Below, one piece after another: positions 28,113 to 61,220 of a DNA stretch of 64,000 nucleotides. Location: assembly GCF_964204645.1 (NCBI RefSeq), contig NC_134034.1, positions 3,752,072 through 3,816,071 of the forward strand, in the 5' to 3' direction. The position numbers and the translations under genes were made by a program. Source of the stretch: Tubulanus polymorphus. Its lineage: Eukaryota; Nemertea; Palaeonemertea; Tubulaniformes; Tubulanidae. The notes beneath the pieces are model-generated. The model saw nothing but the letters and a program-made list of their open reading frames with translations. It ran no database searches and was not told where the DNA came from. Position 1 is the stretch's first letter; every line of letters starts with the position of its first letter.

Positions 28113-29536
28113 CTAGTCATCGCACTGTTTTATTATTGGATTTACACAAACAGCCTGTATCTTACAACCAAGTCTGCCGTTACATTTACCAGATACTACG
28201 CATGTATTCTGGTCGGATTTCATTGCTGTCAATGAATAGGAATCATCCTGCTGCCATCTGAAAAATTAAACATTCAAGATATTTGGATCGATTTGTTTGG
28301 AAATCGAAAGTATTATAAGTGAAATATTTGGTAAGCATATATTAAGATATATTTTGGTATATTACGAGATCATTCTGAATCAGGGGACTCGGAGGCGTTT
28401 TCATATAGCTGCATCGAGCTTACGTAGCACCGGGAAAAGGAGATGGTTCTAAATGGATTAAGTTAAATCTATCGACGAGGAGTGGTCGACCGATTCGACA
28501 GTCATCGAGTGGAGGAGAATGATATAAATACTCACGGGTTATCTAAGCCGCAAGAACTGACGACGAAACCGTCGGGACATGTGATAGTCGGTGTTCTGGA
28601 ATAGTCAGTCGTTTGGACAACGTGATAGAGAGTTTCACACGTGGCGATTGCCTGGAAAAGAAAACTATCCGTGAATGTATATCTATCTGAGTAAAGAAAT
28701 ACTACACTAGGTCTCCCATCTAGACCTATCACTGAAGTATTTACTTGAACATGTATTTACTTGTACGCAACGTTTCGTATACACACACGCACAAACGCAT
28801 ATTGCGTGCAACACAAGTTGAATATGTAAGTACCTTGACTGGAGGTCTATTCAAGCTATGATTCACTCTACACATATTGTATCCGATCACTATGTTCGCA
28901 TCGCAATCCATTTCCGAGGAGCAACTGCATCGGACGACGAAAGAACCTTCCGGACACGTGACCTCACTGATGGCGTCATCAGCAGTCGAAGTTTCTGGCC
29001 CAGTCTTTTCGACTATTACACCAAGCACGTCGCTCACGAACAGGATTGCTCAAATGAAAATGAGAAAATGTTTAATCGCTGTTTATAAAAGGCTCTATAT
29101 TATTATCTTAAGAAACTGGCTACGTACCGGTACGTAATTCTTTTGAATCATTACTCGAAATTATTGCGTTAATATAACGGTTTAAGGCCACCCCCATCCC
29201 AATAAGATCGTAGTGTGGCATCTTATGTTAGTAAATAAAGTAGATAAAGAAACTATGACAGTAATGGAAAGAAGTTGAGGCAGTTTTAGGAGCTATTGTG
29301 TAGGTATAACCAGTCCGGCAATCCTCGCACAGCAGGTTTGTTATCATGATGACATCATAAACTCTTTTTATGATGTTTTATGATAACCTTCAGATTATTG
29401 TTCAGTAGCGATTTGAACGGACTATACTGCTGCGCAGTCTGAGTGCCACCTGCCGTTCAAATCACCCGCCAGGAGAGATAACATTAAGTCTGCATGATCT
29501 ATACATACCAATTATTATTCCGACAAGAAGTTTCAT
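28113..29536 (-). CDS. Gene A: secreted 12-Cys two-module protein (PCSK9 C-terminal-domain-like)
   Basis: Four coding exons on the minus strand: 29509-29536, 28834-29048, 28536-28651 and 28113-28257, all GT-AG with phases 1, 0 and 2. Product is 167 aa: signal peptide MKLLVGIIIAILFVSDVLG, then module 1 (TCPEGSFVVRCSCSSEMDCD...NMCRVNHS...AIATC) and module 2 (TCPDGFVVSSCGLDNPW...KNTCVVSGKC...CKIQAVCV). From memory, the pattern C-P-x-G...C / N-x-C-x-V / A-x-C resembles the repeated module of the PCSK9 Cys-rich C-terminal domain; this is inference and no protease domain is present. The ATG follows CTTTTCAG, implying a non-coding first exon, perhaps ending at a GTGAGT donor at 29839. Unlike gene B, the stop codon is changed to TGC, adding Cys-Asp-Asp before TAG, so this copy has 13 cysteines. 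Confidence 0.85.
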
Positions 29537-30804
29537 CTGAAAAGAACGTAAAACAATATAAGGACTAAATCACGATTGATAAATCACTCCCCGTGTCTCG
29601 CTCTCAAGATTCTGGACCCCTTTTGTAGAAAGAACCGGCATTCTTGAAATTCCGATTCTCCCGCTAATGGTCTACCAATTTTGGCATGGAGCAAGCGACC
29701 CAGCGTCACGACCGTTCACTACCGTTTTTGATTACGAGATAATTCAGCTCATGATTCACTGATGTAATTTTGAAAACTGATTTGCTAAACTAACTTTTCC
29801 TTCCAACCCTCCTGTCATGACGCGTTATGATTAACTCACTCCTCGGTTATCATCGTTGAGAGAGCAGCTATTCCCCGTGAATTACCAACGGGCGTATACA
29901 ACAACAGAAACTTTGGAAAACTAACAACAATCATTTTTCACAAAACTCTAGCGAGTATTACCGTTATTGACTAAAAATGCCCCGCGTGGCGCTCGACGGG
30001 TTGAGGGCGTTTAAAAATCTGTATTTGATACGCTTAATAGATAATGATAAAACGTGTAATCGAGTAGACCATGACCTTGGTAGCTTTTGGAACTGCGATA
30101 CATAGACCGCTGGCAAATTCAACGACACCGCAATTGAATGAAAAAAATATATAGAAAATAAAACTTTAAAGCAGCAAAATTGGTTATCAAATAGAGGGGA
30201 TTTAGAAATTGATGGATTGCAAATCGTCGTGGATTTCCTGGACTCGGTTCCATCACGGCGTCGCAGTTGGGCCCCGGTCGTTTGCGCTCGAACGCAACTA
30301 CGAAAAGTATGTCAGCTTACTGTAGGCCGGAGTAGAACATGGGCAAAACTAGCCAGATACGGCTCGCGATGGTTCGTTAGACGTCGGGTATGATGAGCCG
30401 GTTATATTATGTCGAACGAATATAACGGCTACTGCTGGCCTACTATAATGAGTAGTTAATATCGGATATAAGATATTTTTCTTGAATGAACTTATCTAAT
30501 ACACTCTTTAATTGAAATCTAACTTAGAAAGAACCGTTTATCTGGGCCTCAAAGAGCTCGAACTACTCACCGTGTGTTCGCTGGTTTCTCGCGTCTGCGG
30601 CAGTATGACCGTGACAATACAATTCATACGGTGGTACATCTCTTAAATTGTTAAAATTGTTTAAACAGCCCGCACACCAAGCATTTTATTATGTGGATTT
30701 TGGAAAATATCGAGTGTTTTCTGTCTGGACTGTTAAACATCTGCCGCCAATTATCATATTACATATAGGCCTATACGTAATCGATATTCACGTGAAATAA
30801 ATGA

Positions 30805-32460
30805 TTTAACAATTTCTAGCCGCCATTTTCTCAGGGTATTATGTTTTCATTTCTCATAATAATTTCTCAAATTTGCAAATCTCAATGAGACGAGAATATG
30901 AAATTAAACATAGTATATTGTCACGAATCGTGTTTTGTGGGGTTTACTGTAGGGGGCGCAGCTGAGCTCAACTAAACCACTGACAAGTAGCTGATACACC
31001 TAGTTTCGTTGATGATGATATTTAGGTAAAATCTCGAAAACATACTGACGTATGACTAGGTATTCTCCTATTCTATATTTACATTATCTACGGATATACA
31101 TTATATGCACAGAATAAAGTTAATTCGATGGTTGTCGGACCGAAAACACTAAATTCAAAATACAACCGATAAAAGTGGAATGATGTGGTTCATTATTTTT
31201 TTTTTTGGCGCAAAATATAAGACTGTCTACAATTCTGCTGATATCAAAATGATGGATAACGCGAAGATTATGGATATACATACGAATCAGCGGGGTCAAT
31301 TTTTCGACACAAGACGGCGATCTATTTTGTTTTCATTTCAAATTTGCAATAATTCGATATGCGAGTGGTGTAATGTAACCTTTCTAGCACCCACAGAGAA
31401 ACACAATGGATAATTTGCAGGTTGGTAGTAAAGCAGAAGTTGGTAGCTAGGGGTCAGATCGGTAGTGAGAATGTGTGATCTGTGTGCATTTTTGGCCAGC
31501 ACACAGATCACGACAATCATTAGTCAATTTGGCAGGTTATATTTTGCTAATGCGCAAGAAAAATAGCGCAGCGATAGCAATTCATGTTAACGCTATTTTG
31601 CCACTGCGGCATTATTACTGATTAGCTAATCTAGAAAATAAAGGAAAGTGTGGAGAATAGTGCGGAGTTATTCAGCAATTTTCAAGCGTAGCAAGTTTTC
31701 ACTAGAACACCGAGGCTCGCGGAATGCTTTTGATAAGCCCAATTTCAATCGTGAGAAGCATAAAGTTATTTCGACGAAAACATAGAAACTCAGGAACAAA
31801 TATGAATATGTTTAATTCCGGATACATTGTTTTCGGAAATCATGTTGCTCGTATGAGAAACGGGGAAACGATCGAAAAGATATTTCCGTCTCCTATTTTC
31901 AAGTTTCCCTGTGTCGTGTGCGTTGGGTCATGGGCTCTAAAACGATCAGAGCAGTAATACAGGCACCATCAATATGCAGTCTGGAACCACCAACATGCAG
32001 ACATTCACCATTTTCTTAACATAAAATGTTGTCGGTTCAGTTGCGGCGGCGAAAACTTGGTGACGAAAATGTATCGATATCTAATTAGCTACAAACGTTT
32101 GATGTTGAAATTTATAATGAAACGTTGAACACCAAAAACAGTGTATTATTGTATTATGAAAATGTTTTTTGCTTTGTATTTCATTTCTATTTCAAGAACA
32201 GGGGCCAGTTGCTCAACAGTTGGTTAAAGATAACTGGTGAATGAATACCATTGTAAGACGCATAGTGTCATTGACTGTAGAAAACTCAGATGAATGTAGA
32301 CCTTATTTACTGACGTTATATGTTAAATTCCACACGCGCTTTATTGCCATATTGACCGCCACCAACCGCGCAAAACTATTGCAAATTTGAGAAATGAATA
32401 TGAGAAATGAAAACAAAATTACCATAATATAATGGCGGCTAGCAACTGGTAAATGATTTA
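30805..32460. mobile_element. TIR element inside the left palindrome arm
   Basis: Ends AATTTCTAGCCGCCATTTTC and AATGGCGGCTAGCAACTGGT match the TAGCCGCCATTTT end of the 10183-11945 family. The mirror symmetry continues outwards for ~200 bp: CGAGTGTTTTCTGTCTGGAC at ~30712 is reversed at ~32505. No transposase. A matching outer end is present in the right arm at ~33915. Confidence 0.6.
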
Positions 32461-33120
32461 TTTAACATGAATATCGAATACTGTAATGATAAATGACGGC
32501 AGATGTTTAACAGTCCAGACAGAAAACACTCGATAATTCAATGTCATTTAGGTGCAATTCTCGCTCCAAATGAACAACAAAATCCACTTAAAATAAAATG
32601 TATGTAAAACTTGATAATAGATCGCGTGATCTAGTTGATACGTTCATGGTATAAGCGTTTGTGTGTGCTTAGCGCTCCCACGCACACGTGGAGGCCTTGT
32701 GTAGTGTGTTAAACAGCCCGCACGCGATCGATTATCAAGGCTTTACATTACATTTTATTTTAAGTGTAAAAGTACAAAACATGTAGACCCTCGAATCATA
32801 TTGTTTCAATCTGATACAATTTCGATGATTTCATGCATTCAGAATAAGACTAACATTGAGAAAACTATTTACATTTCACGAACAAAATGCACGGGACAGG
32901 ATACAATGCATTTAACAGGAAAAAGTAATATATTTTAGAACTGGCTCCGAACGTCCGTTTTATGTGTTACAGCATGACCGCCAAAATTCTCAATATTGTA
33001 ATTGTTGTTTCGAAACTCCATTAATGGTGACGTAGTTGGTGACTCACACAATAAATAACACAGTATTTGCCGATGTATAAAAGCTTTATTGTGAAAACTT
33101 TAATTTGCAGTATCAAAAAT
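32371..33120. other. Central spacer of the large palindrome
   Basis: About 750 bp separates the last matched bases of the arms (ACCGCCACCAACCGCG left, CGCGGTTGGTGGCGGT right). It contains the right end of the TIR element (to ~32460) and a separate hairpin element at 32587-32768. No gene. Confidence 0.75.
32587..32768. repeat. Hairpin element in the palindrome centre
   Basis: ACTTAAAATAAAATGTATGT at the left is mirrored by ACATTACATTTTATTTTAAG at the right, followed inwards by matching CTTGATAATAGATCGCGTG / CACGCGATCGATTATCAAG. About 180 bp in all. Confidence 0.8.
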
Positions 33121-35197
33121 TCGCGGTTGGTGGCGGTCAATATAGCAATAAAACGCGTGTGGAATTTAACATATAACGTCAGTAAATAAGGTCTACATTC
33201 ATCTGAGTTTTCTACAGTCAATGACACTATGCGTCTTACAATGGTATTTATTCACCGGTTATCTTTAACCAACTGTTGAGCAACTGGTCCCTGTTCTTGA
33301 AATAGAAATGAAATACAAAGCAATAAACATTTTCATAATACAATAATACACTGTTTTTGGTGTTCAACGTTTCATTATAAATTTCACCATCAAACATTGG
33401 TAGCTAATTAGATATCGATACATTTTCGTCCCCAAGTTTTCGCCGCCGCAACTGAACCGACAACATTTTATGTTAAGAAAATGGTGAATGTCTGCAGGTT
33501 GGTGGTTACATGATCACACATTCTCACTACCGATCTGACCCCTAGCTACCAACTTCTGCTTTACTACCAACCTTCCAATTATCCATTGCGTTTCTCTGTG
33601 GGTGCTAGAAAGGTTACATTACATCACTCGCATATCGAATTATTGCAAATTTGAGAATTGAATATGAGAAATGAAAACAAAATAGATCGCCGTCTTGTGT
33701 CGAAAAATTGACCCCGCTGATTCGTATGTATTTCCATAATCTTCGCGTTATCCATCATTTTGATATTAGCATAATTGTAGACAGTGTTATCAGTAAACCC
33801 CACAAAACACGATTCGTGACAATATACTACGTTTAATTTTATTTTCTCGTCTCATTGAGATTTGAAAATTTGAGAAATGATTATGAGAAATGAAAAGAAA
33901 ATACCCTAAGGAAATGGCGGCTAGAAATTGTTAAACCATTTATTTCACGTGAATATCGATTACGTATATGTGTAATATTATAATTGGCGGCAGATGTTTA
34001 ACAGTCCAGACAGAAAACACTCGATATTTTCCAAAATCCACATAATAAAATGCTTGGTTTGCGGGCTGTTTAAACAATTTAAACGATTTAAGAGATGTAT
34101 CAACGTATGAATTGTATTGTCACGGTCATACTGCCGCAGACGCGAGAAACCAGCGAACACACGGTGAGTAGTTCGAGCTCTTTGAGGCCCAGATTAACGG
34201 GACTTTCTAAGTTAGATTTCCATTGAAGAGTGTATTAGATAAGTTCATTCGAGAAAAATATCTTATATCCGATATTAACTACTCATAAGTAGGCTAGTAG
34301 CCGTTATATCCGTTCGACATAAAATAACCGGCTCATCATACCCGACGTCTAACGAACAATCGCGAGCCGTATCTGGCTAGTTTTGCCCATGTTCTACTCC
34401 GGCCTACAGTAAGCTGACATACTTTTCGTAGTTGCATTCGAGCGCAACCGACCTGGGCCCAGCTGCGACGCCGTGATGGAACCGAGTCCAGGAAATCCAC
34501 GACGATTTGCAATCCATTAATTTCTAATTCCCCTCTATTTGATAACCAATTTTGCTGCTTTAAAGTTTTGTTTTCTATATATTTTTTTCATTCAATTGCG
34601 GTGTCGTTGAATTTACCAGCGGTCTATGTATCGCAGTTCCAAAAGCTACCAACGTCATGGTCTACTCGATTACACGTTTTATCATAATCTATTAAGCGTA
34701 TCAAATACAGATTTTTAAACGCCCTCAACCCGTCGAGCGCCACGCGGGGCATTTTTAGTCAATAACGGTAATACTCGCTAGAGTTTTGTGAAAAATAATT
34801 GTTGTTAGTTTTCCAAAGTTTCTGTTGTTGTATACGTCCGTTGGTAATTCACGGGGAATAGCTGCTCTCTCAACGATGATAACCGAGGAGTGAGTTAATC
34901 ATAACTCGTCATGACAGGAGGGTTGGAAGGAAAAGTTAGTTTAGCAAATCAGTTTTCAAAATTATTTTACATCAGTGAATCATGAGCTAAATTATTTCGT
35001 AATCAAAAACGGTAGTGAACGGTCGTGACGCTGGGTCGCTTGCTCCATGCCAAATTTGGTAGACCATTAGCGGGAGAATCGGAATTTTAAGAATGCCGGT
35101 TCTTTCTACAAAAGGGGTCCAGAATCTTGAGAGCGAGACACGGGAATTGATTTATCAATCGTGATTTAGTCCTAATATTGTTTTACGTTCTTTTCAG

Positions 35198-36610
35198 ATG
35201 AAACTTCTTGTCGGAATAATAATTGGTATGTATAGATCATGCAGACTAAATGTTATCTCTCCTGGCGGGTGATTTGAACGGCAGGTGACACTAAGACTGC
35301 GCGGCAGTATAGTCCGTTTAAATCGCTACTGAACAATAATCTGAAGGTTTTGCGCTGTAAAAAAGAGTTTATGATGTCATCATGATAACAAACCTGCTGT
35401 GCGAGGATTGCCGGACTGGTTATACCTACACAATAGCTCCTCAAACTGCATCAACTTCTTTCCATTAATAACTGTCATAGTTTCTTTATCTACTTTATTT
35501 ACTAACATAAGATGCCACACTACGATCTTATTGGGATGGGGGTGGCCTTAAACCGTCATATTAACGCAATAATTTCGAGTAATGATTCAAAAGAATTACG
35601 TACCGGTACGTAGCCAGTTTCTTAAGATAATAATATAGAGCCTTTTATAAACAGCGATTAAACATTTTCTCATTTTCATTTGAGCAATCCTGTTCGTGAG
35701 CGACGTGATTGGTGTAATAGTCGAAAAGACTGGGCCAGAAACTTCGACTGCTGATGACGCCATCAGTGAGGTCACGTGTCCGGAAGGTTCTTTCGTCGTC
35801 CGATGCAGTTGCTCCTCGGAAATCGATTGCGATGCGAACATAGTGATCGGATACAATATGTGTAGAGTGAATCATAGCTTTGATAGACCTCCAGTCAAGG
35901 TACTTACATATTCAACTTGTGTTGCACGCAATATGCGTTTGTGCGTGTGTGTATACGAAACGTTGCGTACAAGTAAATACATGTTCAAGTAAATACTTGA
36001 GTGATGGGTCTAGATGGGAGACCTAGTGTAGTATTTTGTTACTTAGATAGATATACATTCACGGATAGTTTTCTTTTCCAGGCAATCGCCACGTGTGAAA
36101 CTCTCTATCACGTTGTCCAAACGACTGACTATTCCAGAACACCGACTATCACATGTCCCGACGGTTTCGTCGTCAGTTCTTGCGGCTTAGATAACCCGTG
36201 AGTATTCATATCATTCTCCTCCACTCGATGACTGTCGAATCGGTCGACCACTCCTCGTCGATAGATTTGACTTAATCCATTTAGAACCATCTCCTTTTCC
36301 CGGTGCTACGTAAGCTCGATGCAGCTATATGAAAACGTCTCCGAGTCCCCTGATTCAGAATGATCTCGTAATATACCAAAATATATCTTAATATATGCTT
36401 ACCAAATATTTCACTTATAGTACTTTTGATTTCCCACAAATCGATCCCAATATCTTGAATGTTTAATTTTTCAGATGGCAGCAGGATGATTCCTATTCAT
36501 TGACAGCAATGAAATCCGACAAGAATACATGCGTAGTATCTGGTAAATGTAACGGCAGACTTGGTTGTAAGATACAGGCTGTTTGTGTAAATCCAAAAAT
36601 ATTACAGTGA
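35198..36610 (+). CDS. Gene B: secreted 12-Cys two-module protein, mirror copy of gene A
   Basis: Coding exons 35198-35225, 35685-35899, 36082-36197 and 36475-36610 (phases 1, 0, 2) give a 164-aa protein, with AATAAA at 36645. Signal peptide MKLLVGIIIAILFVSDVIG, then two six-cysteine modules as in gene A: TCPEGSFVVRCSCSSEIDCD...AIATC, and TCPDGFVVSSCG...NTCVVSGKC...AVCV. It differs from gene A by a handful of substitutions and the normal TGA stop after KILQ. The ATG directly follows TTTTCAG in all four family members, so a 5' untranslated exon is likely; a GTGAGT at 34890, ~60 bp after GTATACG, may be its donor. Genes A and B are divergent, heads towards the palindrome centre. Secretion is clear; function unknown. 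Confidence 0.9.
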
Positions 36611-37362
36611 GATGACAAGACGAAACAAATAATGTAAAAGCCGAAATAAATATTCCATTTACATTTATTCGAGACCTATGCACCAGTGATAATGTTTTGC
36701 TTGCTGTTGAGCGCTGGTGTACTGCGAACTTTCCGTTATTTTTGTCGTATCTGCCGATTATTCGGCTGGGATTCGAACCTGGCGGATGACGCCAAGATTG
36801 CACGGACACCCAATCCTAATGTACCGGACCAAGTCGATAATATTGTGCAGCTTTGCCGCGAAAGAAACACGGATGCACCTAGAGATTGTCGACATAACAA
36901 GGCAAATATTCATTGCTCGATTGGAAACGTGCCTTTTGAGCGGGAACCTGTTATATAAATATATTGGGAAGTGAAATAGACGAACGAAGGCTAATGCGGC
37001 AAAGGTTTCTTTCTGTTGGCGTGAGCTTTGAAACCCTGGCAAGCGAGAAAAATACTTTGCCTGCCATTAGGTTCCCTTTCTAGTTTCAGTTTCAGTTTAG
37101 TTCATTCACTCCACAAGTTATAATAACATTGCACAGAGCACAAAAGTAGCGCATAGATTACAGCATATTACAAAAAATATAATGATATTGTTAATAATAA
37201 TTATATTTATAATAATAACAATTATGATTATAGTAAAAATAATAATAATAGTGATAGCAGTAATATAATACTTATAATAATAATAATTATAATTATAATG
37301 AAATTATAATGCAAAAGATGAGGCGGAATTGTAGTATCGAGATCCGATAATTATACACTATA

Positions 37363-40300
37363 TTAGGTAAATGATTTGATACCTTTTTTAATGAATATCG
37401 CCAGATTGAGCAAAGTTTTACCTCTCGAACAGAAAAGGTTATGTAAGGTATTTTCATTGGGATGTCGCCAGTAGTAACTAGGTATAAATTTGTTTCTCAG
37501 GCTTTGAAAAAAGGGACATACTAAAAGAAAATGGAATTCGTCTCCAGTTGCTGCCAAATGAAATTTCTGACAAATTCTATGCTTTCGCTCAATCTGGCGA
37601 TATCTACCGATTTCAATAGGTAACTTATGGTTCGAGCATCTGAATCGACACAAGGCTAGGCGGAGACTGGGGGGTAATTTGGTCAGGTACTCTTCGAATT
37701 TAAAACAGTTTTTAAAACGCTTGTAGGTTAAGCAAATTTGGTGTTTCGTTGACCTTGGAGTACCAGCGTTGTGCTTACTGATCCATGAGCCTCTGTTTCA
37801 AAATACTATAAAGATAATTAGCACTGGGTACAGATTGAGTTTCCCTAGCGTGGCCGAGACCATTTTTTACAAGAATATTTTTAACATTAAGAATCCAAGC
37901 GTTACCCCGACCGCCGTGGTGCGTTTGATAGATATATTTGTACATAAAAGAAGAGAAATGTTCAGTCTGATTTATCAATTTTGTCCAAAATTTAACGATT
38001 CTCAATTTAACATAAATCTCTAAAGGATAGCGCCCAAGCTCACCGTAAATGAATACACTAGACGTAGACCTTTTCAATCTGAGTAAATATTTAAAAAATT
38101 GTAGCTGAACACGCTCGAGTACCTGTGTGTTCTCATATCCCCAAATTTCACAGCCAAACAGCAATATAGGTAATACCATACTATCATAAAGTTTCAAGGT
38201 CAGATCTAGGTCTAATGAATGTTCACTTGAATTTTTTAATACAAAAAATACCGCTTTCATAGCTTGTTCCGAAAGAGTTTTACGACATTGTGTGAACGAT
38301 CCAGTGTATGAAAAGAGAACACCCAGGTACTTGAATTTATCAACTATTTCTAATTTGTGACCATTAATGTAAAATTCTGGTAAGATTCTTAATCTTCTTT
38401 TCGAGAAGATGATGACCTTTGTCTTGTCATTATTAATTGAAAGTTTCCATTCTTGGCAATATTCACAGAGATTATCTATAAGTTTTTGGAGTCCCTCGGG
38501 CGAATCACTTAATAAAACCGTGTCATCTGCATACATGAGAATTAAAAGTTGGAACCATGGCACATTGTTAGGTCCGAAAAAATTTAGGGTTGGACTATTT
38601 CGTTCTAATAGATAGCTTTCCAGGTCGTTTAAAAAGATAGAAAATAATATAGGAGACAGATTTTCACCTTGTCTTACCCCTAAATAGCTATCAAAAAAAT
38701 CTGACATTTTATTATCGGAAAAAACACATGAGTTGATACCTTGATACATTTTATGTATAACGTTAAGTACTTTGCCAGTGACACCACTGTTAATTAGTTT
38801 GTGCCACAAGGCCTTTCTCCAGATAGAGTCGAAGGCTTTTTTATAATCTATGAAAATACAATAGAGTTTTTGATTGTTGTTTAGGAAGGTGTCGACTAGA
38901 GCCTTGAGGGTAAATACGTGGTCCATAATGCTATGATTCTTCCTGAAACCGGCCTGGTTCTGTAGCAAAAGATTGTTAATTTCTAAGTACTCGGTAAATT
39001 CTTTCGTTGATAATACTAGTGAATAGTTTGCCAATATTGCTTAAAAGGGTGATTCCCCTATAATTATCGGGGTCCTTTTCGCTACCTTTTTGTTTAAAGA
39101 AAGGGACAATGATGCCTTTCAGCCATGACTCTGGAATAGTGCCTGTATCGAGAGCATTATTAAAAAGGTTTACTAATAAAGGTAGTAGTGATTCTTCGGC
39201 ACTTTTGAGGAACTCATTCGGTATCCCATCGATACCACAGGCCTTGAAATTTTTTTGCTTTTTAATGCATTTTGAGATTTCTTCCCTAGAGAACGGTTGA
39301 TTCAAAGGGCCATGGTCAAAGTTACTACCTATAAATTCATCAACGTTATTTAATAGAGGTTCGTTTCCGTTTAAAACTGGGCTTTCATTCATAGATTTGA
39401 AATGTTGGAAGAGATCGGAGTTCGGAACTTTGCACGAATTGTTATCTGATTTTTTGAATAGTTTCCAAAATGTATGAGGGTCAGAGTTTGATAGTTGTCT
39501 AATTTTCCTGCTAAATTCTTGCCTTTTGTCGTTTTTCCATTTGTTAATAGTTTTTTTTATATTTACGAAAGGCACGATTCATTTCAAAATGATTATTTCT
39601 AGTGCGCAGGCTTAGGTACAAACGTTTGGCACGGCGATAGTCAGACCTCGCTAGTCTAACTGTTACGTTGTTAGTGGCTTTAACGGCTGACCGCGGTTTG
39701 GATTTACGTTTCAAAACCCGCTTACCCATGACGTTACCAGCTGTGGTTAACGATATATTACAAAGCCTGTCGTTGGCCTCGTTTGCATTTAATGTGTTGT
39801 TTGCGAGACATTCACTGATACTATTGAGAAGAGGCATTTCCCTTTCTAAGGACTGAACAAATTGATCCTTCAGATCTGGCTTCCAATTAACTTTCTCTTG
39901 ACAGTTTTCACTGGCGTCCACAGAGGCCAGGTCTGGAATTTCGATCTTAAAACTGAACTCTGCAATTAGACCACTGTGGACGTCAGAGAAAAGCTTTTCG
40001 AATTCTAAAACCTGGAACAGTCTTACAGAACTGATCAAATGAGGGGATGCGATCATGTAATCTACTATATGTTTAATTTCGCCTTTATGACACGTATAGT
40101 CACCGGTCAATCGATCGGGAGCTATCCTGCCGTTCAAAATAATAATACTATAGTTTTTACACAGTTCTACTAAACGGGACCAATAGTTATTCACCGAGAG
40201 ATCTTTAGTTTTGCGTCTTAATATGTCATAACTGGAAAGCACCTGTTCACAAGTATAGGTTTCTAAAAGAAGCTCGTTGTCAAGGTCTGATCCAACAGTT

Positions 40301-40830: not shown

Positions 40831-40849
40831 TATGCTCTGTGGTCTCCTG

Positions 40850-43130: not shown

Positions 43131-43153
43131 AGTGCATTCTTATCCATCAATCT

Positions 43154-47226: not shown

Positions 47227-49953
47227 CTAGTTAGTCAGCGTCAAAGTGCGAAATGCTTCCATGTATTTGTTTTTAACGCGACAGACGTATTGTGAATCCC
47301 AGCCGGTCGCGTCAGCTGCTGTCGGCGACTCGATCACCAAACGAGCCATAATCGATGTTTTGTGACGAGATGTGACTACCCTCTTGTTACCCGTAGATGT
47401 TATCTCGGCGGATTCTTTTTCGGGGTCGCTCAAATCGCGTATACTTTGTGTCTTGTAGAAACGGATTTCTGGAAGCGGATATCCGGTGGCATCGCAGTTC
47501 AATGTAACCTAAAACAATCAAGAAAAACAAAAAAGATACAGTAAAAAAAAACGGAACAGGAACCAGTTCACCGCTGTTTGGCAGCTCGAGATGTGTAGTC
47601 TCTAAGAATCAAGAAGTTAACAGTTTCTAGGCGCCGCTTTTTGGTGGTCCCTCGAGATCGCGATTGTTGCGATGATTTTCGAGGGCCCGTTTCAAAATTG
47701 CGCCTAAAACGCCTTTTGTCATTGATCCTAGAAAGGGAGTGACTCATTGTTATTCATTTGATTGGTAGAATGGTAGATTTCGTTTGATTTAATCTTGAAT
47801 AGGGGTCCCTCGCAAACCCAACACAACTGCCGGGAGCTGCCAGCGCTTTTGAAATCACAGAATTTTTCGTTTCAATCGAATTACTTAATTGTTTGTTATT
47901 AGCGCCTCTACGTTTTACGCGATAGATTCACATGTGGACTGCGAAGGAGTCCAGAATTAGCATTTCGCAGGGGCCAAAAGAATAACAAATATAACGGATT
48001 ATCAGAAACAATGTTGATATGTATTACCTCTTTCTCGCTAGTTGCATTGTACACCGTCTCATGCATTTCGTCGTCTGAAATGAATTTAATCGGTTCGAAC
48101 TGCGCGAACTTGATCGCTTTCGATTGAATCGGGTGTCGATAGCCGACATCTAACTTCCACTGATCCTCGAAAATCGCCGACTGGCGTCCATCCACTCTAA
48201 AATAGGATATGAGATAATTATCCGAGCGAACCGTCGAAATTGGTTTCACGAATTCACCATTACTGCCCGTCAATAAAATGAAAGGACTCGGATAAGCCAC
48301 GGTGAATACAAAGACTGTGGTTTTCTCTTTCTGGCTTATAGGTACCACACCAAACTTCTCCAAAGCGTCCGTTTTAGACTGCCATAGATTCTGGTACAAC
48401 GCGGCTGTATATAACATAACGTTTCTGATCATTCCAAAATCGCTTCTCTTGGTGACGAAAGAACACGTCGCCCTGTCAATATGAACTACATCGCCGACGC
48501 CCAAAGTAAGGTAAGATGTTGATGCGCAGTATTCACCCATATTTTCATCTGATGCTTTCAGTTTCACGACTATGCTCGACTCGTAGGTCAGATCGTCGAT
48601 CCATTTATTGTACGTTCCGTTATTGCCGATCGAATTCGGTTTGTGATGGTCCGTTTTCCGACCGTCGTTTGTGGCGAATCTGTACCAGGTGTTAGCAGCA
48701 CCCACGATGCCTCTGCTCGCTTTACTGCGTGAGAATTGCGGGGCCGCATCGGTGACATCGAACGTCAAGCGTCGCCGCAACGTCACCGTGCCATCGACTG
48801 AATCTTCCAGCAATATCGTCTCCGGAGATCCGGTAGCTGTACCCAACGGAACATCGCGCAGGATTACTTCTTCACCGGGAGTTATGATAATATGAATGGT
48901 GTATCGTCGGCAGCCGGTCAGAAACATCATCAAGCGGTATTCACCTAGTTTTTCTAGTGTTTCGGGGGCTGATTCGACTGTTAACCGCGCTGTAGTCGAC
49001 GAGCCTGAAGTTTGTAGGGATATTTTACCGTATCCATCATCATCGCCAGCATCTGGAAATATGAATTCAGAGATCATCGCAACGACAGATTCAGACTCAT
49101 ATTTCATGACACTAGATGTTTCAAACCTACTGAAAATTCAACGAATACGCAAAGGGCAGGGGAGAGTTGCCAGAAATTTAGGGAAAAAGTACCCGTTTGC
49201 AAATATAACTGTAGTCATATCTATTACAAATCTAATGCAGAATCTTTCCCTTGGGACTGAAGAACATTTTTATAGGGCCAAACTGTGATTTTGTAAGGGC
49301 TCGAAGAATCGTTATATCGGTTTTTGCTTTAGAACTGCCCTTCTGGGTTTTCGGCCCCTCCTCCAACATTCAAATGCTAGGTACGGCCCTGAACTACTTT
49401 TCTTTCTTCGCGTTATTGCTACCACAATTTCGTAAGTTATAGTGATGAACAGGACACCGGGTGATGTTGTTAATGATTGCAACGTTTGAAATTTGGTATA
49501 CGTAGAAATGGAATAATTTACCCGTAATGATGATTGGTGCATCTTGTTCGATAAACCGAACGTACCAGTGCATTATTAACTCCAGGTTTGTATCAGTGGT
49601 TACTGATATGACGAACGGTTTTCGTGCTTCGTACTCTGAAACTTCAACTCGCCGAATCCAACCGAGATTATCCGAACACTGATCGCCCCGTACGTCTGCC
49701 CAAACACCAGACGACACGATACACGCCTGTTACAATTCATACAAATATGACGTGGTTAAAATGATCGATGCTTTTCAAAGTATCGACAAAAGTGATCTTC
49801 TAAATCGTGAACGGAAATGTTTAGACTTCGCAAATATAGCCAGCATGATGTCTGTGATGATTCTGTTTTCAGATTGAATGAGAGACAATGGTCGAACGTA
49901 GACCTCGTACTTACTGTGAGAATTGTTGCAAAAGTCAAACTTAGCTTCCCCAT
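47227..49953 (-). CDS. Secreted Ig-domain protein, 4 exons, 516 aa
   Basis: Exons on the minus strand: 49915-49953, 49522-49726, 48028-49052 and 47227-47508; phases (0, 1, 0) fit at every junction and all acceptors end in AG. The signal peptide spans exons 1-2 (MGKLSLTFATILT then ACIVSSGVWA). The C-terminal exon (residues 424-516) is an I-set-like Ig domain with VTLNCDATGYPLPEIRFYK and DSQYVCRVKNKY; cysteines at about 428 and 499, and Phe in place of the usual core Trp. Residues ~15-420 look like two or three divergent Ig folds (LGEYRLMMFLTGC, DENMGEYCASTSYL, LISYFRVDGRQ) with few canonical cysteines. No transmembrane segment after the Ig domain, so probably secreted. Specific function not recognised; cell-recognition or immune roles are common for such proteins. 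Confidence 0.85.
47620..47700. repeat. Isolated TIR-like end in the Ig-gene intron
   Basis: ACAGTTTCTAGGCGCCGCTT followed by GGTGGTCCCTCGAGATCGCG. The inverse appears at 56160-56205 (GATCTCGAGGGACCGCC then GGCGCCTAGAAACTG). It is a member of the GGCGCC-ended element family. Confidence 0.6.
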
Positions 49954-51459: not shown

Positions 51460-54230
51460 TCAAATAAGTTCGGGATCGACGCAAACCGCCTGTATCCTAC
51501 AACCACGTCCACCAGTACATCTAGCAGAAGTTACACATGTTTTCTGGTCGGATTTCAATGCCATGATATTCGGGTTCGTATGTGCCCATCTGATAATATG
51601 AAACAATCCAGATATCAAGAACTGATTGTAAAAATCTAAAGTAGGCACACTGGAATATTTGTGCCATTTAGAAATTTGGCTAAGTCTCACACGAGACAAT
51701 CTGAATAAGATAACTTGAGGATAGAGTTGACAGGATCATCAGTGAATTCGACATCTTTGAATGAGTAGATCCAGGATTTTCAAAGGAGGGGTGCTCTGCT
51801 GGTCATCCCCCGGAAATCTTTGAAGATTTAGTCTCATTTTATGGCGTTCTGAGCATTTTTGAAACTTACCTTGCTCTTACAGATGTACCTATGTCTTTCC
51901 GATAAGGGAAAAGAAAAGAAAACTACCTTGAGCAGTTGACGGAATGAGTATAAAACAAATACTCACGGGTAATATAGGCCGCAAGATCGGACGACGAGAT
52001 CGTCGGGACATGAGGCCTTCGGTGACCTGGCATATCCGCTCGTATCGACAACATAATACAGAGTTTGACAGGTGGCGATCGGCTGTAAAAAAATTAACGC
52101 GATTTGAACCAGACGACCATCCATGATATACGTCATGAATGAAATCGTTTTAACCGAGAAATTGTAAGAGTAATGCGCTGTGAATCTGCTATTTGTATCC
52201 ACCCCTCAAGGCAATATGCTGCTAAGGTGTACCAATCAGACAATCTGTTGTACGTATGTGCCCACCCCCTAAGACGATATTCTTTTTACACCAACCCTTC
52301 AGATAATCTGCTCTCTGTACCCTGCACCCATCAGACAATCTGCTGTCCGCAGCAACCCCTCAGACAATCTCCTGTCTGTACCCTCCCTTCATGCAATCTG
52401 CTGTCAACACCCACCCCCTCAGACAACACCTTCAAAGAATTATTCAATAAGTGATGAAATGTCTTTGTTCATTTTCTATTTCAATCAAGTACCTTGACTA
52501 CAGGTTTCCCTCCGGTATGTGTCACTATACAAGTGTTTCCAATCACCCAATTCGAGTCGCAATTGGCTTGCGTGGAACAACGACATCGGACAACGGTATA
52601 CCCTGCCGGACATGCGACCGCACTGGCGGCATTATCAGCAGCCGAAGTTGCTGGCCCAGTCTGCTCGACTGTTATGCCAAGCACGTCGCTCATGAACAGG
52701 ATTCCTTCAATAGAATGAGAATATTTTTAATGTAATTGAAAAATGCATTATCCGCTCGCGTAGAAATGTAAAATGTATTGCTATTCGGGTGATAAAGGGG
52801 TAATATCAATTTTCGTAGATATAATGTGAAAAAGTTAACGAGCTAATTTCATCCCTAATGTAATTTTGATTTGCCTACGTTTGAGCGCGTACAAAATAAT
52901 ATGTATAGTGTTGAGAAAGGATGGCTGATTTGGGGCTTGATTTTACCTAGTGCGCTAGAACCCTCGGGTATTATTGGGAGATCTGGATGGCTAATTTATC
53001 TAATTTATAAAATTTGTTTCTTGAAATTTTCTGTCCTTATTTTTGATCTAATTATCTGCAAAAAGTCGGAGTATATTGACTGGGGTTTAATTTTGATACT
53101 GGATTAAATATACATCAGCATGTAAATTTAGGAAAGTCCATATTCGTTTCTTGGTTTATCTTAAATTTGAGATTGACCCTGTTAATTATTTGATTGGCAG
53201 ATTCCGTTTGATATTCTTTTTGATTTAGTGTCCCTTACAAACCCACCATATACCTGAATCGAAACAGGGGTACCATTTGTACACCACTTCAAGAATCAGA
53301 ATATATCATGTATCTTCTAGGCAAAAGGTTCTTCTGAAGAACGATTTGTTCTAAGAGTGTATTTCGGAGGAGATTTGAACCTGATAACATCGTGAAAATC
53401 AGGATTCATTCACGGACCTAACTATGCACTGTATATTAGAAACACAAAACTGCTCCTAGTGTAAAACTTTTACTTTTAGGCAAACTCAGTACCAGATGTG
53501 AAGTACCAACTGCGCACCCCTTGACGGAGAAACCCATCCTCATCGGAGCTGCACCGTCGATGTCATACAACTACACTTCGGATATCCCAGGGCCATACTT
53601 TCATCTGGAAAATTTGCGTTTCGAAATGTGCTTTCTTCCTATCTAGTCAACACGCGGGATCATCAACTTTAGAGGGCTTCTACATCAACATCTACCCGAG
53701 AAAAAACCACAATAAACTATCGGACTATTTACACGTAGAAAACGACCAAAAAATATAAAAATGGACAAAATGATCTTCAATCTTGTAATATAGCTATTTC
53801 CAGAATCTCAATGTATTAAATTAGGCAGCCAGAAAAATTCATCCCAACCAGTCGCTTGCCGGTTCAGACTGAATGGAAGATTGTTTGGATGAACCGGAAC
53901 CGAATTTCCAATTATGTACTTCGATTTGAAAATATTCTGTTAACTCTACCGCCGATCACACAACTATATCTGTACTTCGATTTCCGATTTCAAAATCAAA
54001 CCCCCTGTTTCGCTCCCGGCAGGTGTGGTGGGTCTGTAAGGGACACTCAATCGAAAAATCAAACGAAATTTACCAACCAAATAAATAAATAACGGGTACA
54101 ATCCCTATTCTAAGATAAAAAATCAGGCACGTAGTCGCAATGCTAGCTGGTTCGAATCCCAGCCGAGGAAGGTTACGTATAAAGGCTATTATTTGCACAT
54201 ACCAATTATCGTTCCGACGAGAAGTTTCAT
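51460..54230 (-). CDS. Gene C: secreted 12-Cys two-module protein
   Basis: Coding exons 54203-54230, 52493-52704, 51967-52082 and 51460-51589; phases 1, 0, 2 as in A and B; 161 aa; AATAAA on the minus strand at 51435-51430. Signal peptide MKLLVGTIIGILFMSDVLG. Module 1 has ACPAGYTVVRCRCSTQANCD, NTCIVTHTGG and PIATC. Module 2 has SCPDDLVVRSCGLYYPW, KTCVTSARC and CRIQAVCVDPELI. All 12 cysteines align with A and B although the sequence has diverged strongly, mainly in exon 3. The ATG follows ATTTTCAG, so an untranslated first exon is expected; see 54757-54822. Intron 2 holds a CAGACAATCTG minisatellite. Family assignment (PCSK9 C-terminal-domain-like) is inferred from the cysteine pattern. Confidence 0.88.
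52200..52440 (-). repeat. Intronic minisatellite in gene C
   Basis: Irregular ~30-bp units centred on CAGACAATCTGCTGTC followed by a TACCCTGCACCC-like spacer, about seven copies. The equivalent intron of gene D carries an expanded version (59900-60340). Confidence 0.8.
53107..53670. other. Intron 1 of gene C, no additional feature
   Basis: Aligns in part with unit D (for example GGCAAAAGGTT(C/T)TTCTGA(A/G)GAAC). No coding content. Confidence 0.4.
53671..54091 (+). repeat. Interspersed repeat, copy 2 (pair with 4376-4800)
   Basis: Starts GAGGGCTTCTACATCAAC and ends CCAACCAAATAAATA. It shares GTCGCTTGCCGGTTC, ATGAACCGGAACCGAATTT and CCGCTCCCGGCAGGTGTGG-type words with copy 1. It sits in intron 1 of gene C and is absent from the equivalent intron of gene D. 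Confidence 0.8.
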
Positions 54231-54756
54231 CTGAAAATATTATAAGATAATATACATGTGTCCGTTAATGATTTATTTACGCTGAAAGAACATGTCACTA
54301 GTAACGCCTTATAACCGAGTCCAATCCAGCAGGGAAGGTGGGGAAAGTAGTCATTTAAAATTTAGATGACAGAAATTAAAAAATACATCATGGTATTAAT
54401 TAAAGAATTTTAAAGGATCCTCAAAAATGTATCTCAGTTCCAGGGGATCCAAATAGCATTAATAAAAAGGATTGTGGTAGGCTATAGTCTGTCAGTAGAG
54501 ATGCGGAGACAAGCATGCTGAAAACTAAAAAAACCACAATCACCAACTTCTGAACAATTGGTACAACCCATGGTTTCCATAGGGTTCAAAAATTACGTAA
54601 TAATGTTCTGATAACCAGTTGGGTATCGAGAATCAAATTGTACGTTTGGAAAATTTGCTGATTTCCTTGAAAATGTATAAATTGCTAAATATATCAACTC
54701 TTCAATTATCTCTCACTCGAATTGATTAAACGGGTGAAAACTGACATTTACTCACG

Positions 54757-54822
54757 TTGTTTTGTGTTTGCTGTTTCTGGTTGACAGTCGTTTAATGATA
54801 TACATGTATAAACAAATATATA
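54757..54822 (-). promoter_or_regulatory. Probable TATA box and untranslated first exon of gene C
   Basis: Read on the minus strand, CTATATATTTG (54822-54812) is followed ~55 bp later by a GTGAGT donor at 54756. Between them are TCAACCAGAAACAGCAAAC-like words. Unit D has the same arrangement with the same spacing, and the coding exons of both genes start right after a TTTTCAG acceptor. The 5' exon is therefore inferred as about 54757-54795. Confidence 0.5.
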
Positions 54823-55676: not shown

Positions 55677-56158
55677 TATGTCTGCAAGGAAACTTATATT
55701 TTAAGGTGGGACGAGCATTGATGACAGGAACCTGGACAGATCCATATATAATAAGGCTGTGTAGGCTCAACCCGTTACGGCTCTCGTTCGAAAAACCCAA
55801 GAATCACCAGCAAACTTCCTTTATAATGGTGTATATTTAACTAGCAAGGGACTGGCGAGTAATTGAAATTCAATAGAAACTTTTGTTTAAAGAATGAGCG
55901 AAAATTACTGCAAGAATATGTCTGCAAGGAAACTTATATTTTAAGGTGGGACGAGCATTGATGACAGGAACCTGGACAGATCCATATATAATAAGGCTGT
56001 GTAGGCTCAACCCGTTACGGCTCTCGTTCGAAAAACCCAAGAATCACCAGCAAACTTCCTTTATAATGGTGTATATTTAACTAGCAAGGGACTGGCGAGT
56101 AATTGAAATTCAATAGAAACTTTTGTTTAAAGAATGAGCGAAAATTACTGCAAGAATA
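55677..56158 (+). repeat. Perfect 240-bp tandem duplication
   Basis: The block starting TCTGCAAGGAAACTTATATT at 55681 is repeated identically from 55921. All four compared 60-base lines match at an offset of exactly 240 until 56158, where AATATG becomes AATAGG. Unit D has only one, diverged, copy (about 62586-62837), so the tandem arose after the C/D duplication or reflects an assembly error. Confidence 0.95.
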
Positions 56159-56159: not shown

Positions 56160-56275
56160 GGATCTCGAGGGACCGCCACAAAATGGCGCCTAGAAACTGG
56201 AAACTTGGGCTCAATGCCAGTTAAGCACGGAATAATTCCGTTCAAAGTTACATTATAAAAATGAGTAATTCGGCT
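56160..56275. repeat. GGCGCC-type TIR fragment
   Basis: GATCTCGAGGGACCGCC and GGCGCCTAGAAACTG are the inverse of the element end at 47620-47700. Confidence 0.6.
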
Positions 56276-57640: not shown

Positions 57641-58663
57641 ATGAATTTCGTATATATTTGCTTGATGATCTGTCTGCTCGGGTCGGTGAACGTGACTATT
57701 GCGACGCTGAGTGGTAAGATGCGCAGCGTGATTTTCTTTCAATGTAGAAAACTCACCATCATAGATGGTTTTAGTGTCATATTGGCCGCTGCCACCCGTG
57801 ACTTCTTACGCTCGTAAAACCGTTACTGTACACTGATGTTCACTACATCGGTAACTTCTGCTAGATTTTTAAGGGATACCGTGTGAATCGATGTGCACTC
57901 GTCATCATTGCCTGATTAGACTGGTTGCCTATCAATTGAATTGCCGACAGGCCCCCTATTTTCAAATTCAACATAACTCAATTGGTCCATAATATTATTA
58001 TTATCACATAATTCATTGTCGAGAACATAAGACAATGTGTATGGTGGTGTAAATAAACTTAATTTTCTTCGCCCGGTTTCATAGACTGAGTATTAAAGTT
58101 ATCCCTAGGGGTAAATCGTCAATCTGGATGACAACCACCATAGTAACAATGAGAAACCATGGTTATAACTGACAAATTTCAAAATGTTCCCAGGGACTAT
58201 TTTTCTTCCCCATCTATGAAACCCAGCTGTGTTTGACGATCAGTATGACGCGCGGTGACGTTACGCAAAAATGGCCTATAGGTGGCCAGTGTGTACCGTA
58301 GTGATTTCAATTTTTGTCTTAATAACAGATGAGGATCGCTTGTGGCAAACGCGAGAGAGCCGCGCGGAGGAGAAACGAGCAGTACCGGTGGTTGGACTAG
58401 CTATTGCGGGCATCAACGCAGCCTTAGCGCTAGGTGCGAGACTATTGGGTAAAACGGGCAGCTCAGAACGACACTATGAAAACGAAGTCATGATCTGTTA
58501 CCGAAAAGACCAGGCAGCACGTGACGCCAGGGCCCGTATCGAAAGAACCTACGATAACTGTCGATTTCAGCACGATAAGAAAGCCTGGATTTTCTTTAAA
58601 AGAACGTGGTATTGCCTGATGAAACAAGATGCTTGTAAAACATTGGGCCACGCCCTTGATTAG
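57641..58663 (+). CDS. Two-exon secreted protein, 135 aa, unrecognised
   Basis: Exon 1 57641-57713 (ATG to phase-1 donor GTAAGA) encodes the signal peptide MNFVYICLMICLLGSVNVTI-ATLS. Exon 2 58329-58663 (acceptor AATAACAG, stop TAG) follows in phase; AATAAA at 58735. The mature chain begins DEDRLWQTRESRAEEKRAVP; the EEKR may be a processing site. A hydrophobic, Ala/Gly-rich helix (VVGLAIAGINAALALGARLL) follows, then a basic region with four cysteines (MICYRK, YDNCRF, WYCLMK, DACKTL). The hydrophobic segment could insert in membranes or pack as a core helix. No family recognised. It sits between the two duplicated units carrying genes C and D. Confidence 0.8.
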
Positions 58664-58740
58664 ATTTAGTGATGTAATGCCTACAATTCGTAGAACTACC
58701 TGTACGTTGTAGAAGCGGTATCGAAATACTATAAATAAAG

Positions 58741-59069: not shown

Positions 59070-59318
59070 AGCCCGTTCTGTGCACTCGGTTATTTCCCGT
59101 TCGTTGCAGTCTTGTGCCGGCATCTTGTACGTTGCAGTCTTGTACCTTGTGCCGGCATCTTGATTCAAATCTTTGCCAAGTGATCATCGGATAACACAAG
59201 GATTGATGTCACGGCACACCAATGCCAAATAGCTGTGAAAACTAATATGTACCGGTATATAGATTATAATTCAAATATCTTTATTGAAGCTTTATTTTAA
59301 CTTATGATCTCAAGTAAT

Positions 59319-61220
59319 TTAGCGATCGACGCAAACCGCCTGTACCCTACAACCACGTCCACCAGTACATCTAGCAGATGGTACACATGTTTTCTGGCCG
59401 GATCTAATTGCCATGATATTTGGGTTCATATGCGCCATTCTGAAAATATGAAAAAATCGAGATATTAGGAATCGATTGCAGAAATCTAAAGTAGGCATAC
59501 TAGAATATTTCAAAGGAAGGGGATGTCCTCTTCTGATCATCCCCAGAAATCTTTTAAAAATTAGTCTCATTTTATGGCGTTTTTAGGCAATGCTTGATCA
59601 TCTCATATATTCAGAATTGTACCTTGCTCTTACGAATACGTATCTCTTTCCTATCAGGGGATACAAATACTCACGGGTAAAATAGGCCGCAAGATCGGAC
59701 GACGAGATCGTCGGGACACGAGACAGTCGGTGAGCTGGCATATCCGCTCGAATCGACTTCATACTCGTCCACAGCATTATCACAGGTGGCGATCGGCTGT
59801 AAAAACAACGTGATTTGAACCAGACGACCATGCATAATATACGTCGTGAATGTGATCTTTTAACCGAGAAATTGCAAGAGTAATGCGCCGTCAATCTACC
59901 ATTCGTACCCACCCCTCGAGAAAATTTGCTGCCAGATCCACTCCCAAACAATCTGTTTTATGTATGTACCCGACCAAGACAATATGCAATCTGCACCCAT
60001 CCTGCAGACAATCTGCTGGTTGTATACCCACCCCTCAGGCAATTTGTTGTTCCCACCCCCTTCAGGCAATCTGCTGTTTGTATCCACCCCTAAGACTATT
60101 TTCTGTCTGTACCCTGCACCCCTATCTGATGTAGCACCACCCTTCAGACAATCTGCTGTTTGTACCTGCACCCCTTAGACAATCTGCTATCTGCAACAAC
60201 CCCTCAGACAATCTGATGTCTGTATCCTGCACCCCTTCAGACAATCTGCTGTCTGAAACAACCCCTCAGACAACCTGATGTCTGTACCCTGCACACCTTC
60301 AAGCAATCTACTGTCTGCAACAACCCCTCAGACAACACCTGCAAAGAATTATTCAATAATTGATGAAATGTCATTTTTTATTTTCTTTTTCAATCAAGTA
60401 CCTGGACTACAGGTTTCCCACCGGTATGTGTCACTCTACAAGTGTTTCCAATCACCCAATTCGAGTCGCAATTGGCCTGCGAGGAACAACGACATCGGAC
60501 AACGGCATACCCCGCCGGACATGCGACCGCGCTGGCGGCGTTATCAGCAGCCGAAGTTGCTGGTCCAGTCTGCTGGACTGTTGCGCCAAGCACGTCGCTC
60601 GCGAACAGGAATCCTTCAATCAAATGAGAATATTTATAATGTAATTGAAAAATCTATCATCCGCACGTGTACAAATCGGGAAAATGGTGGAGGGGTTATA
60701 CGAATTTCCATAGATATAAGGTATAGAGTTAACGAGCTAATTTCATCCCTTATCGAAATGTGATTTGCATATGTTTGAGCGCGTACAAAATAATGTGTAG
60801 TGCTAAAAACGGATGGCTGATTTTAGGCTTGATTTTACCAAGTACGCTAGAACCCTCGGCTATTGTTGGGAGTTCTGGATGGCTGATTTATCTATGGCTA
60901 ATATTCAAAAAGCCTCAGAAACACCATCTTTATCTCTCAAATTTGGAATTGAGTCTATTGATTATTTGATTGGTAGATTCCGTTTAATTTTTGATTTAGT
61001 ATCCCTTACAAACCCACCACCTACCTGGCCATCGAAAAAGGGGGTACCATTTTGCATACCACTCCAAGCCTCAGGATATATGTATCTTCTAGGCAAAAGG
61101 TTTTTCTGAGGAACCATTTGTTCTAAGAGTGTATTTCGGAGGAGATTCCCCAGCCGGGGAAGGTTAAGTATAAAGGCTATGGTTTGTACATACCAATTAT
61201 TATTCCGACGAGAAACTTCA
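59319..61220 (-). CDS. Gene D: secreted 12-Cys two-module protein
   Basis: Coding exons 61193-61220, 60402-60613, 59675-59796 and 59319-59439, phases 1, 0, 2; 160 aa. Signal peptide MKFLVGIIIGFLFASDVLG. Module 1: ACPAGYAVVRCRCSSQANCD, NTCRVTHTGG, PIATC. Module 2: SCPDDLVVRSCGLFYP, KTCVPSARC, CRVQAVCVDR then TAA, ending four residues earlier than gene C. Exon 3 is two codons longer than in A-C and differs most from gene C (DNAVDEYEVDSSGYASSPTV). The conserved Trp after the exon 3-4 junction is Met here. All 12 cysteines are kept, so the copy looks functional. ATG directly after CTTTTCAG; promoter and untranslated exon inferred at 61807-61873. Confidence 0.88.
59900..60340 (-). repeat. Intronic minisatellite in gene D, expanded
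   Basis: About 14 irregular ~30-bp units around CAGACAATCTGCTGT(C/T)TGTA with ACCC(C/T)TGCACCCC spacers. It occupies intron 2 of gene D, about twice the length of the version in gene C. Confidence 0.85.

Follow-up and report, generated by a model that had tools for sequence, protein, structure and literature searches.

As a drug target PCSK9 is of major importance, and resistin has been much studied in inflammation and defence; we know of no established evolutionary origin for the module of resistin and the PCSK9 tail. Tandem-amplified host-defence peptide families form another class of relevant systems, with arrays of short, signal-bearing, cysteine-rich genes, rapidly evolving proteins, and some apparently broken copies. 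Resistin and the resistin-like molecules (RELMs) are described as bactericidal and as permeabilizing membranes (PMC8253364), the RELM spacing is given as C-X8-C-X-C-X3-C-X10-C (PMC9869618), and a structural likeness to resistin is reported for the PCSK9 tail, both of them binding CAP1 (PMC9816786). Among the matches listed in an open-access literature search (titles and beginnings of abstracts), none described a free-standing resistin-like or PCSK9-tail-like family in invertebrates.

The window analysed here (the whole 64,000-nucleotide stretch of Tubulanus polymorphus contig NC_134034.1, positions 3,752,072 to 3,816,071) contains four genes, A to D, which are confirmed at the sequence level (Table 1). 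Each consists of four coding exons bounded by GT donors and AG acceptors, and reading of the splice sites bears out the intron phases (1, 0 and 2) that a sequence-only reading had assigned to all four. That reading also had them sharing exon lengths, which are in fact close without being identical (28/212-215/116-122/121-145), and placed the end of gene D at 61220, one base short of its actual position, 61221; its 164-residue product for gene B was correct. The 12 aligned cysteines that it described are present in B, C, and D, while gene A carries a thirteenth in a shifted tail. In B, C, and D, residues 1 to 18 are hydrophobic (GRAVY 1.9-2.5) and, by hydropathy alone, signal-like. An AG acceptor lies immediately 5' of every ATG, and alignment of genes C and D reveals a common upstream segment with GTGAGT at its end, which makes it likely that a fifth exon, non-coding and 5' of the others, exists.

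Table 1. Positions of genes A-D, their exons and associated features in the window.
Feature	Position	Strand	Basis and remarks
Gene A	28113..29536	-	coding exon lengths 28/215/116/145 including stop; product 167 aa
Gene A exon 1	29509..29536	-	splice-site reading
Gene A exon 2, module 1	28834..29048	-	splice sites
Gene A exon 3	28536..28651	-	splice sites
Gene A exon 4, extended tail relative to B, holds 13th Cys	28113..28257	-	splice site, stop read
Gene B	35198..36610	+	coding exon lengths 28/215/116/136; product 164 aa
Gene B exon 1, start of signal-like stretch	35198..35225	+	TTTCAG acceptor precedes ATG; donor GTATGT in phase 1
Gene B exon 2, rest of signal-like stretch, then module 1 to C5	35685..35899	+	splice sites, Cys pattern
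Gene B exon 3, module 1 C6 and module 2 C7-C8	36082..36197	+	splice sites
Gene B exon 4, C9-C12 and stop	36475..36610	+	splice sites
Gene C	51460..54230	-	coding exon lengths 28/212/116/130; product 161 aa
Gene C exon 1	54203..54230	-	splice-site reading
Gene C exon 2, module 1	52493..52704	-	splice sites
Gene C exon 3	51967..52082	-	splice sites
Gene C exon 4	51460..51589	-	splice sites
Likely 5' non-coding exon of C	54756..54800	-	C/D upstream alignment; donor GTGAGT, start not fixed
Gene D	59319..61221	-	coding exon lengths 28/212/122/121; product 160 aa
Gene D exon 1	61194..61221	-	splice-site reading
Gene D exon 2, module 1	60402..60613	-	splice sites
Gene D exon 3	59675..59796	-	splice sites
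Gene D exon 4	59319..59439	-	splice sites
Likely 5' non-coding exon of D	61807..61850	-	C/D upstream alignment; donor GTGAGT, start not fixed
Inverted repeat, A and B one per arm	27642..37074		arms ~4.7 kb, 91-100% alike by segment

The four genes, first taken for the whole family, are only its local part, as the module-1 exon occurs at at least 45 places on 8 contigs of the same genome (three own-genome searches, a place being counted at E <= 0.02 in at least one of them), 26 of which sit in four head-to-tail arrays. Sequence was read for 32 of the 45 places, the other 13 being known from search matches alone. Four of the 32 were set aside: the second L048 and L055 copies, which look broken, one further C11 copy, and L059, of which the sequence read covers the module-1 exon only. 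In the 28 sampled members that remain (A to D included), all 105 intron edges that were tested keep their GT or AG, with neither position nor phase shifted. The 45 places and the kept intron edges together imply a structure beyond chance. Joined products were obtained for 22 of the 28 (for L043 the sequence used covers part of module 1; in L045, L051b, L053, L055, and L058 an exon was not found or not included), and these can be aligned from where the signal-like stretch ends up to the C-terminus. In their tree, the six sampled members of the C6 array and the two of the C11 array form clades (support 100/99). Alignment A2, used for module 1, retains 21 of 26 sequences after removal of near copies (A, L052, L049a, L049b, and L056), and alignment A3 retains 18 of 23 (A, L052, L049a, L049b, and L050 dropped, some row ends trimmed). 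Query A1 gave no match in NCBIfam, and neither a pattern search nor tblastn with this query found bacterial or viral relatives. The genome itself yields 39 Wnt exon matches, which mark it as that of an animal; innexin and GFP searches, each run with no control that gave a match, found nothing at E 0.001.

All 22 joined products have Cys-8-Cys in both modules. In module 1 the core spacing is 8,1,5,10, with 16 residues from C5 to C6. Contrary to what had been proposed, the modules are not equal: module 1 has its added cysteine pair inside the C2-C5 interval, whereas in module 2 the pair falls inside C9-C12. Aligned with each other, the two module profiles give a probability of 83.5 over 18 columns around CP-G.

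Module 1 and PCSK9 modules M1 and M3 (Pfam PF18459 and PF18463) have in common C-x8-C, a G-P about 10-14 residues upstream of the first core cysteine, C-x-V/A following C5, and an A-x-A-x-C end. In addition, the 16 residues from C5 to C6 equal the distance in M1 between what we take to be Cys509 and Cys526 (letters checked, numbering assumed). The overall architecture differs from that of PCSK9, with two modules instead of three, an added cysteine pair in each, no outer cysteine pair (A-F), and no protease. On this last point the sequence-only reading was right: the 160-167 aa products comprise a signal-like start and two modules without any subtilisin-like (S8) domain, and none of the 14 S8 matches in the genome (E <= 0.001, 22 candidates scored; contigs C1, C3, C5, and C6) lies within 0.6 Mb of any family place.

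Pfam matches to Resistin, PCSK9_C1, or PCSK9_C3 amount to 16 member-family pairs over 21 module-1 sequences, all of them below the gathering cut-offs: Resistin (PF06954) matches seven sequences (best E 0.0017; best score 19.4 bits, for L041, against 25), PCSK9_C3 six (best E 0.0033; 17.4 bits against 26.7), and PCSK9_C1 three (best E 7.4e-4; 20.1 bits against 31.3). The module-1 consensus matches PCSK9_C3 at E 0.0019 (18.8 bits against the same 26.7), the gene C piece taken with the start of exon 3 matches it at E 0.017, and the joined family consensus reaches Resistin at E 8.8 only. When ten module-1 sequences were scanned singly, five matched one or more of the three models, four of these with a match running through C6, and the other five matched none. 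With hhalign, shuffles score as well as the module-1 profile in 0/100 cases for human PCSK9 M1 and 1/100 for M3, compared with 87/100 for M2. Judged from these profiles, the similarity of module 1 to the PCSK9 C-terminal module is weak but exceeds cysteine spacing. The PCSK9-tail match first suggested for both modules holds in part, for module 1 though not against M2. For module 2, none of 18 sequences matches any of the three Pfam models, shuffles do as well as its profile against M1 and M2 in 41/100 and 53/100 cases, and a search of solved structures returned no match; its likeness lies in short alignments to M3 (27 columns, with hhalign) and to module 1 (the 18 columns above). Searches of the same genome with the human PCSK9 tail, which we judged uninformative, and with PF18463, whose controls were likewise without match, found nothing.

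Comparison with resistin is at least as close. Like the RELMs, family members are short, with a start that is signal-like and the core C-P-x-G-x-x-V-x-x-C-x-C...C at spacing 8,1,(5 versus 3),10, which puts them midway between the RELMs and module 1 of PCSK9. Unlike them, they have two modules and score below the Pfam cut-off. Of the ten-cysteine RELM signature (C-X11-C-X8-C-X-C-X3-C-X10-C-X-C-X-C-X9-CC), the family has just the central C-X8-C-X-C-Xn-C-X10-C plus a single terminal cysteine, and is without the first cysteine, the two C-x-C-x-C partners, and the second cysteine of the final CC. As the outer PCSK9 pair is absent and Cys-x-Cys...Cys is present, module 1 is no less resistin-like than PCSK9-like. 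In the solved-structure search with the module-1 profile, scytovirin and other proteins outrank RELM-beta (E 3), and PCSK9 is not among the matches listed; the consensus finds neither RELM-beta nor PCSK9. We consider the scytovirin, scorpion-toxin, lectin, and lipin matches to be due to chance, as they cover few residues or members and depend on the query.

Such rankings are what would be expected if the likeness were convergent, the family being an unrelated secreted cysteine-rich group, such as venom or mucus peptides, that happens to share C-8-C, C-x-V, and A-x-C. Every Pfam score is below cut-off, hhalign probabilities to the PCSK9 modules are all <= 12%, and all three models miss module 2. 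On the other hand, members match three Pfam models of a single structural group while no other model matches more than two of the 21 sequences, four matches stay in register through the last cysteine, and none of 63 cysteine-fixed shuffles matches Resistin, PCSK9_C1, or PCSK9_C3. We regard convergence as unlikely, although it is the most serious of the alternatives. On the favoured reading, module 1 would share common descent with the RELM head domain and the Cys/His-rich repeats of the PCSK9 tail, module 2 less surely so. By analogy with PCSK9 and resistin cores, C1-C6 and C2-C5 would pair in module 1, with C3-C4 as an extra bond, and C7-C12 and C8-C9 in module 2, with C10-C11 as the extra one.

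On the same reading, genes A to D are the local share of a family that is disulfide-rich and probably secreted. Tandem and inverted duplication would have spread its genes, and their amino acids change fast while the cysteine frame stays fixed. Pairwise dN/dS is about 0.85 (C/D), 0.61 (B/C), and 0.74 (B/D), and A and B differ by eight amino-acid-changing and no silent substitutions, their introns differing by 2.4-2.7%. Arrays, short cysteine-rich genes with a signal-like start, fast protein change, and broken-looking copies recall tandem-amplified host-defence peptide families. Predicted pI ranges from 4.7 to 9.7 among the 22 products (above 7.5 in 17, with A and B acidic); the products are thus not uniformly cationic, which argues against a simple cationic antimicrobial. 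The sequence directly shows exon and splice-site structure, the family and its spacing, profile matches that are weak but specific, and the lack of a linked protease; from it we infer transcription, fold, pairing, secretion, and function. On balance we favour a family in which resistin/PCSK9-tail modules have become free-standing and have expanded in number, probably as secreted defence or recognition ligands. The most likely action would be extracellular release of rigid heads whose variable surfaces bind microbial surfaces or host receptors, much as lipids or protein partners are bound by RELMs and by modules of the PCSK9 tail.

The family might instead be a set of receptor ligands or hormones with RELM/PCSK9-like signalling, for instance through CAP or a lipoprotein-receptor partner. 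This would also accommodate the binding of CAP1 by PCSK9 tail and resistin alike (PMC9816786), but at least 45 places, arrays, high dN/dS, and broken-looking copies better fit a diversifying effector family, and we find this reading rather improbable. Venom or mucus toxins would likewise be short, signal-bearing, cysteine-rich, tandem-amplified, and fast-changing, but no named toxin family is matched beyond a 28-residue cysteine coincidence (E 0.4), which leaves them the poorest candidates.

If the favoured reading of free-standing defence or recognition ligands holds, such a large animal family would supply sequence intermediates between resistin and PCSK9, would reveal the role of the module without a protease, and would provide, for binding tests, a natural series of variants built on one fixed cysteine frame. 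More tentatively, this animal may deploy a secreted repertoire of free-standing, two-headed proteins, amplified in arrays, that are made from the resistin/PCSK9-tail module. With both the resistin C-x-C...C and the PCSK9 M1 ending, module 1 would then link two vertebrate families that structure alone has connected until now; if so, resistin and the PCSK9 tail may both stem from a secreted module of defence or recognition that is old.

All four genes proposed by the sequence-only reading were found: A, B, C and D each comprise four coding exons separated by GT-AG introns in phases 1/0/2, and the alignment of their products contains the 12 common cysteine columns claimed for them. In these products, the N-terminal six-cysteine unit (module 1) is spaced C-8-C-1-C-5-C-9/10-C-16-C, and the second (module 2) C-8-C-22/23-C-5-C-5-C-5-C. 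Genes C and D share an upstream stretch ending in a GTGAGT donor and preceded by a TATA-like stretch (by eye), and an acceptor lies ahead of each ATG in A-D, so that a 5' non-coding exon is likely. A 29-base minisatellite occupies intron 2 of C and D, and frames seemingly derived from a similar repeat occur at two other family loci (L040, 4068-4228; L044, 3727-3879); it may have spread along with the family genes or may help their duplication.

Features of the window (window positions) and arrays of module-1 exons elsewhere in the genome (contig positions)
Feature	Location	Strand	Description
Gene A	28113-29536	-	
Gene B	35198-36610	+	
Gene C	51460-54230	-	
Gene D	59319-61221	-	
Inverted repeat	27642-37074		holds A and B head to head; arms ~4.7 kb, 91-100% alike by segment; 0.75-kb centre
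LINE-type retrotransposon endonuclease/reverse transcriptase-like frame	37363-40849	-	by eye
LINE-type retrotransposon endonuclease/reverse transcriptase-like frame	42084-46066	+	by eye
409-aa open frame	47908-49137	-	no Pfam match
29-base minisatellite, gene C	52289-52426		CAGACAATCTGCTGTC-type unit
240-base unit	55677-56158		two identical tandem copies
134-aa open frame	58259-58663	+	signal-like start at first Met, GLAIAGINAALALGARLLG hydrophobic stretch, five Cys
29-base minisatellite, gene D	60139-60335		CAGACAATCTGCTGTC-type unit
Array	C6, 6.02-6.07 Mb		8 places, one direction
Array	C8, 12.14-12.17 Mb		8 places, one direction
Array	C11, 12.45-12.48 Mb		6 places, one direction
Array	C1, 31.26-31.28 Mb		4 places, one direction

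Neither the 134-aa nor the 409-aa frame matches Pfam; the latter is possibly a piece of a larger gene. Genes A and B lie one per arm of an inverted repeat of ~9.4 kb in total. Their introns differ by 2.4-2.7%, and their coding sequences by eight amino-acid-changing and no silent differences, which shows weak recent constraint, positive selection being unproven with so few sites.

The family had been taken to have four members, but the same genome (268 Mb, 77 contigs) holds 45 module-1 exon places (hand count), on contigs C1 and C5 to C11. It is an animal genome, with 39 exon matches to Wnt, and the window spans 3752072-3816071 of contig C10. Successive protein queries revealed 28 places (gene C), 13 more (a joined C1 member) and four more (a C8 exon, whose six-residue ending was approximate). 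Every place counted reached E 0.02 or lower with one or more of the three queries, and two with E >1 were excluded. Four arrays jointly hold 26 of the 45 places. In a sample of 20 stretches with 28 members, phase is conserved at the GT donor after exon 2 (27/27), the AG acceptor of exon 3 (27/27), the GT donor after exon 3 (27/27) and the AG acceptor of exon 4 (24/24), counts which are a check rather than a blind prediction, as exon edges were picked by homology. Joined products, reaching from where the signal-like stretch ends to the C-terminus, were obtained for 22 members. In their tree, six C6-array members form a clade, as do two C11-array members (100/99 support), while four C1 members group only together with the C11 pair, and that tentatively. 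Two copies seem broken by eye (cysteine lost or frame shifted). Judged from these sequences, family growth looks like birth-and-death. One module-1 exon (L059, 205-801; C6, 21.03 Mb) reads in frame with a long upstream Ser-Pro repeat.

C-8-C is present in both modules of all 22 joined members, and further cysteines are lineage-specific. The six joined C6-array members share the same two additional module-1 cysteines, the number that one more disulfide would need, and the four C1 members have one between the modules.

Full-length A, B, C and D match PF18463 (PCSK9_C3; best E 0.018). Among 21 diverse module-1 sequences, seven match Resistin, six PCSK9_C3 and three PCSK9_C1, and any other Pfam model is matched by at most two. 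Scanned alone, module 1 of family member L048a matches PCSK9_C1 (E 7.4e-4, profile positions 16-81 of 83) and that of L041 both Resistin (E 0.0017) and PCSK9_C3 (E 0.0052); single scans of ten module-1 sequences left five with no match to any of these three models. No family score reaches the curated Pfam cut-off, and 63 shuffles with every cysteine fixed gave no match to these models. We also aligned profiles (hhalign) with single modules of the human PCSK9 tail (M1-M3), against 100 cysteine-fixed shuffles. Module 1 outscores 100/100 shuffles against M1 and 99/100 against M3 but does not stand out against M2, and module 2 outscores 100/100 against M3, though across just 27 columns, and does not stand out against M1 or M2; hhalign probabilities are 12% or lower in every comparison. 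The sub-cut-off Pfam scores speak against a relation to PCSK9 and resistin, as do searches of solved-structure profiles, which returned RELM-beta (resistin-like molecule) at E 3, PCSK9 being absent from the matches. Module 1 shares C-8-C and the 16-residue last spacing with M1, and the middle of the cysteine signature with RELM (C-X11-C-X8-C-X-C-X3-C-X10-C-X-C-X-C-X9-CC in the excerpt of PMC9869618). Taken together, these Pfam, shuffle, hhalign and spacing results suggest that module 1 is probably a homologous relative of both the PCSK9 tail and resistin. Modules 1 and 2 show a short mutual profile match around C-P-x-G-x-x-V-x-x-C, and module 2 is read here as a copy that has diverged further. 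Invertebrate proteins with PCSK9-tail domains are present in databases, and the module may thus already be catalogued outside vertebrates; no paper among the matches listed describes, in its title or abstract beginning, a free-standing family of it.

The predicted absence of a protease agrees with the subtilisin (PF00082) search, which scored best candidates only, so that weak exons could escape: none of 14 matches (C1, C3, C5, C6) adjoins a family place, the closest lying ~0.7 Mb away on C5.

Resistin and its relatives are described as secreted, with a C-terminal part that binds bacterial lipids and makes pores (excerpt of PMC8253364); CAP1 is a partner common to resistin and the PCSK9 tail (excerpt of PMC9816786). 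Charge does not settle the function, A and B being acidic and 17 of the 22 joined members having a pI >7.5. Many arrayed copies, a constant cysteine frame and dN/dS values of 0.6-0.85 together would fit a repertoire of secreted binders, which we infer would be under shifting demand, and for which host defence would be the simplest role.
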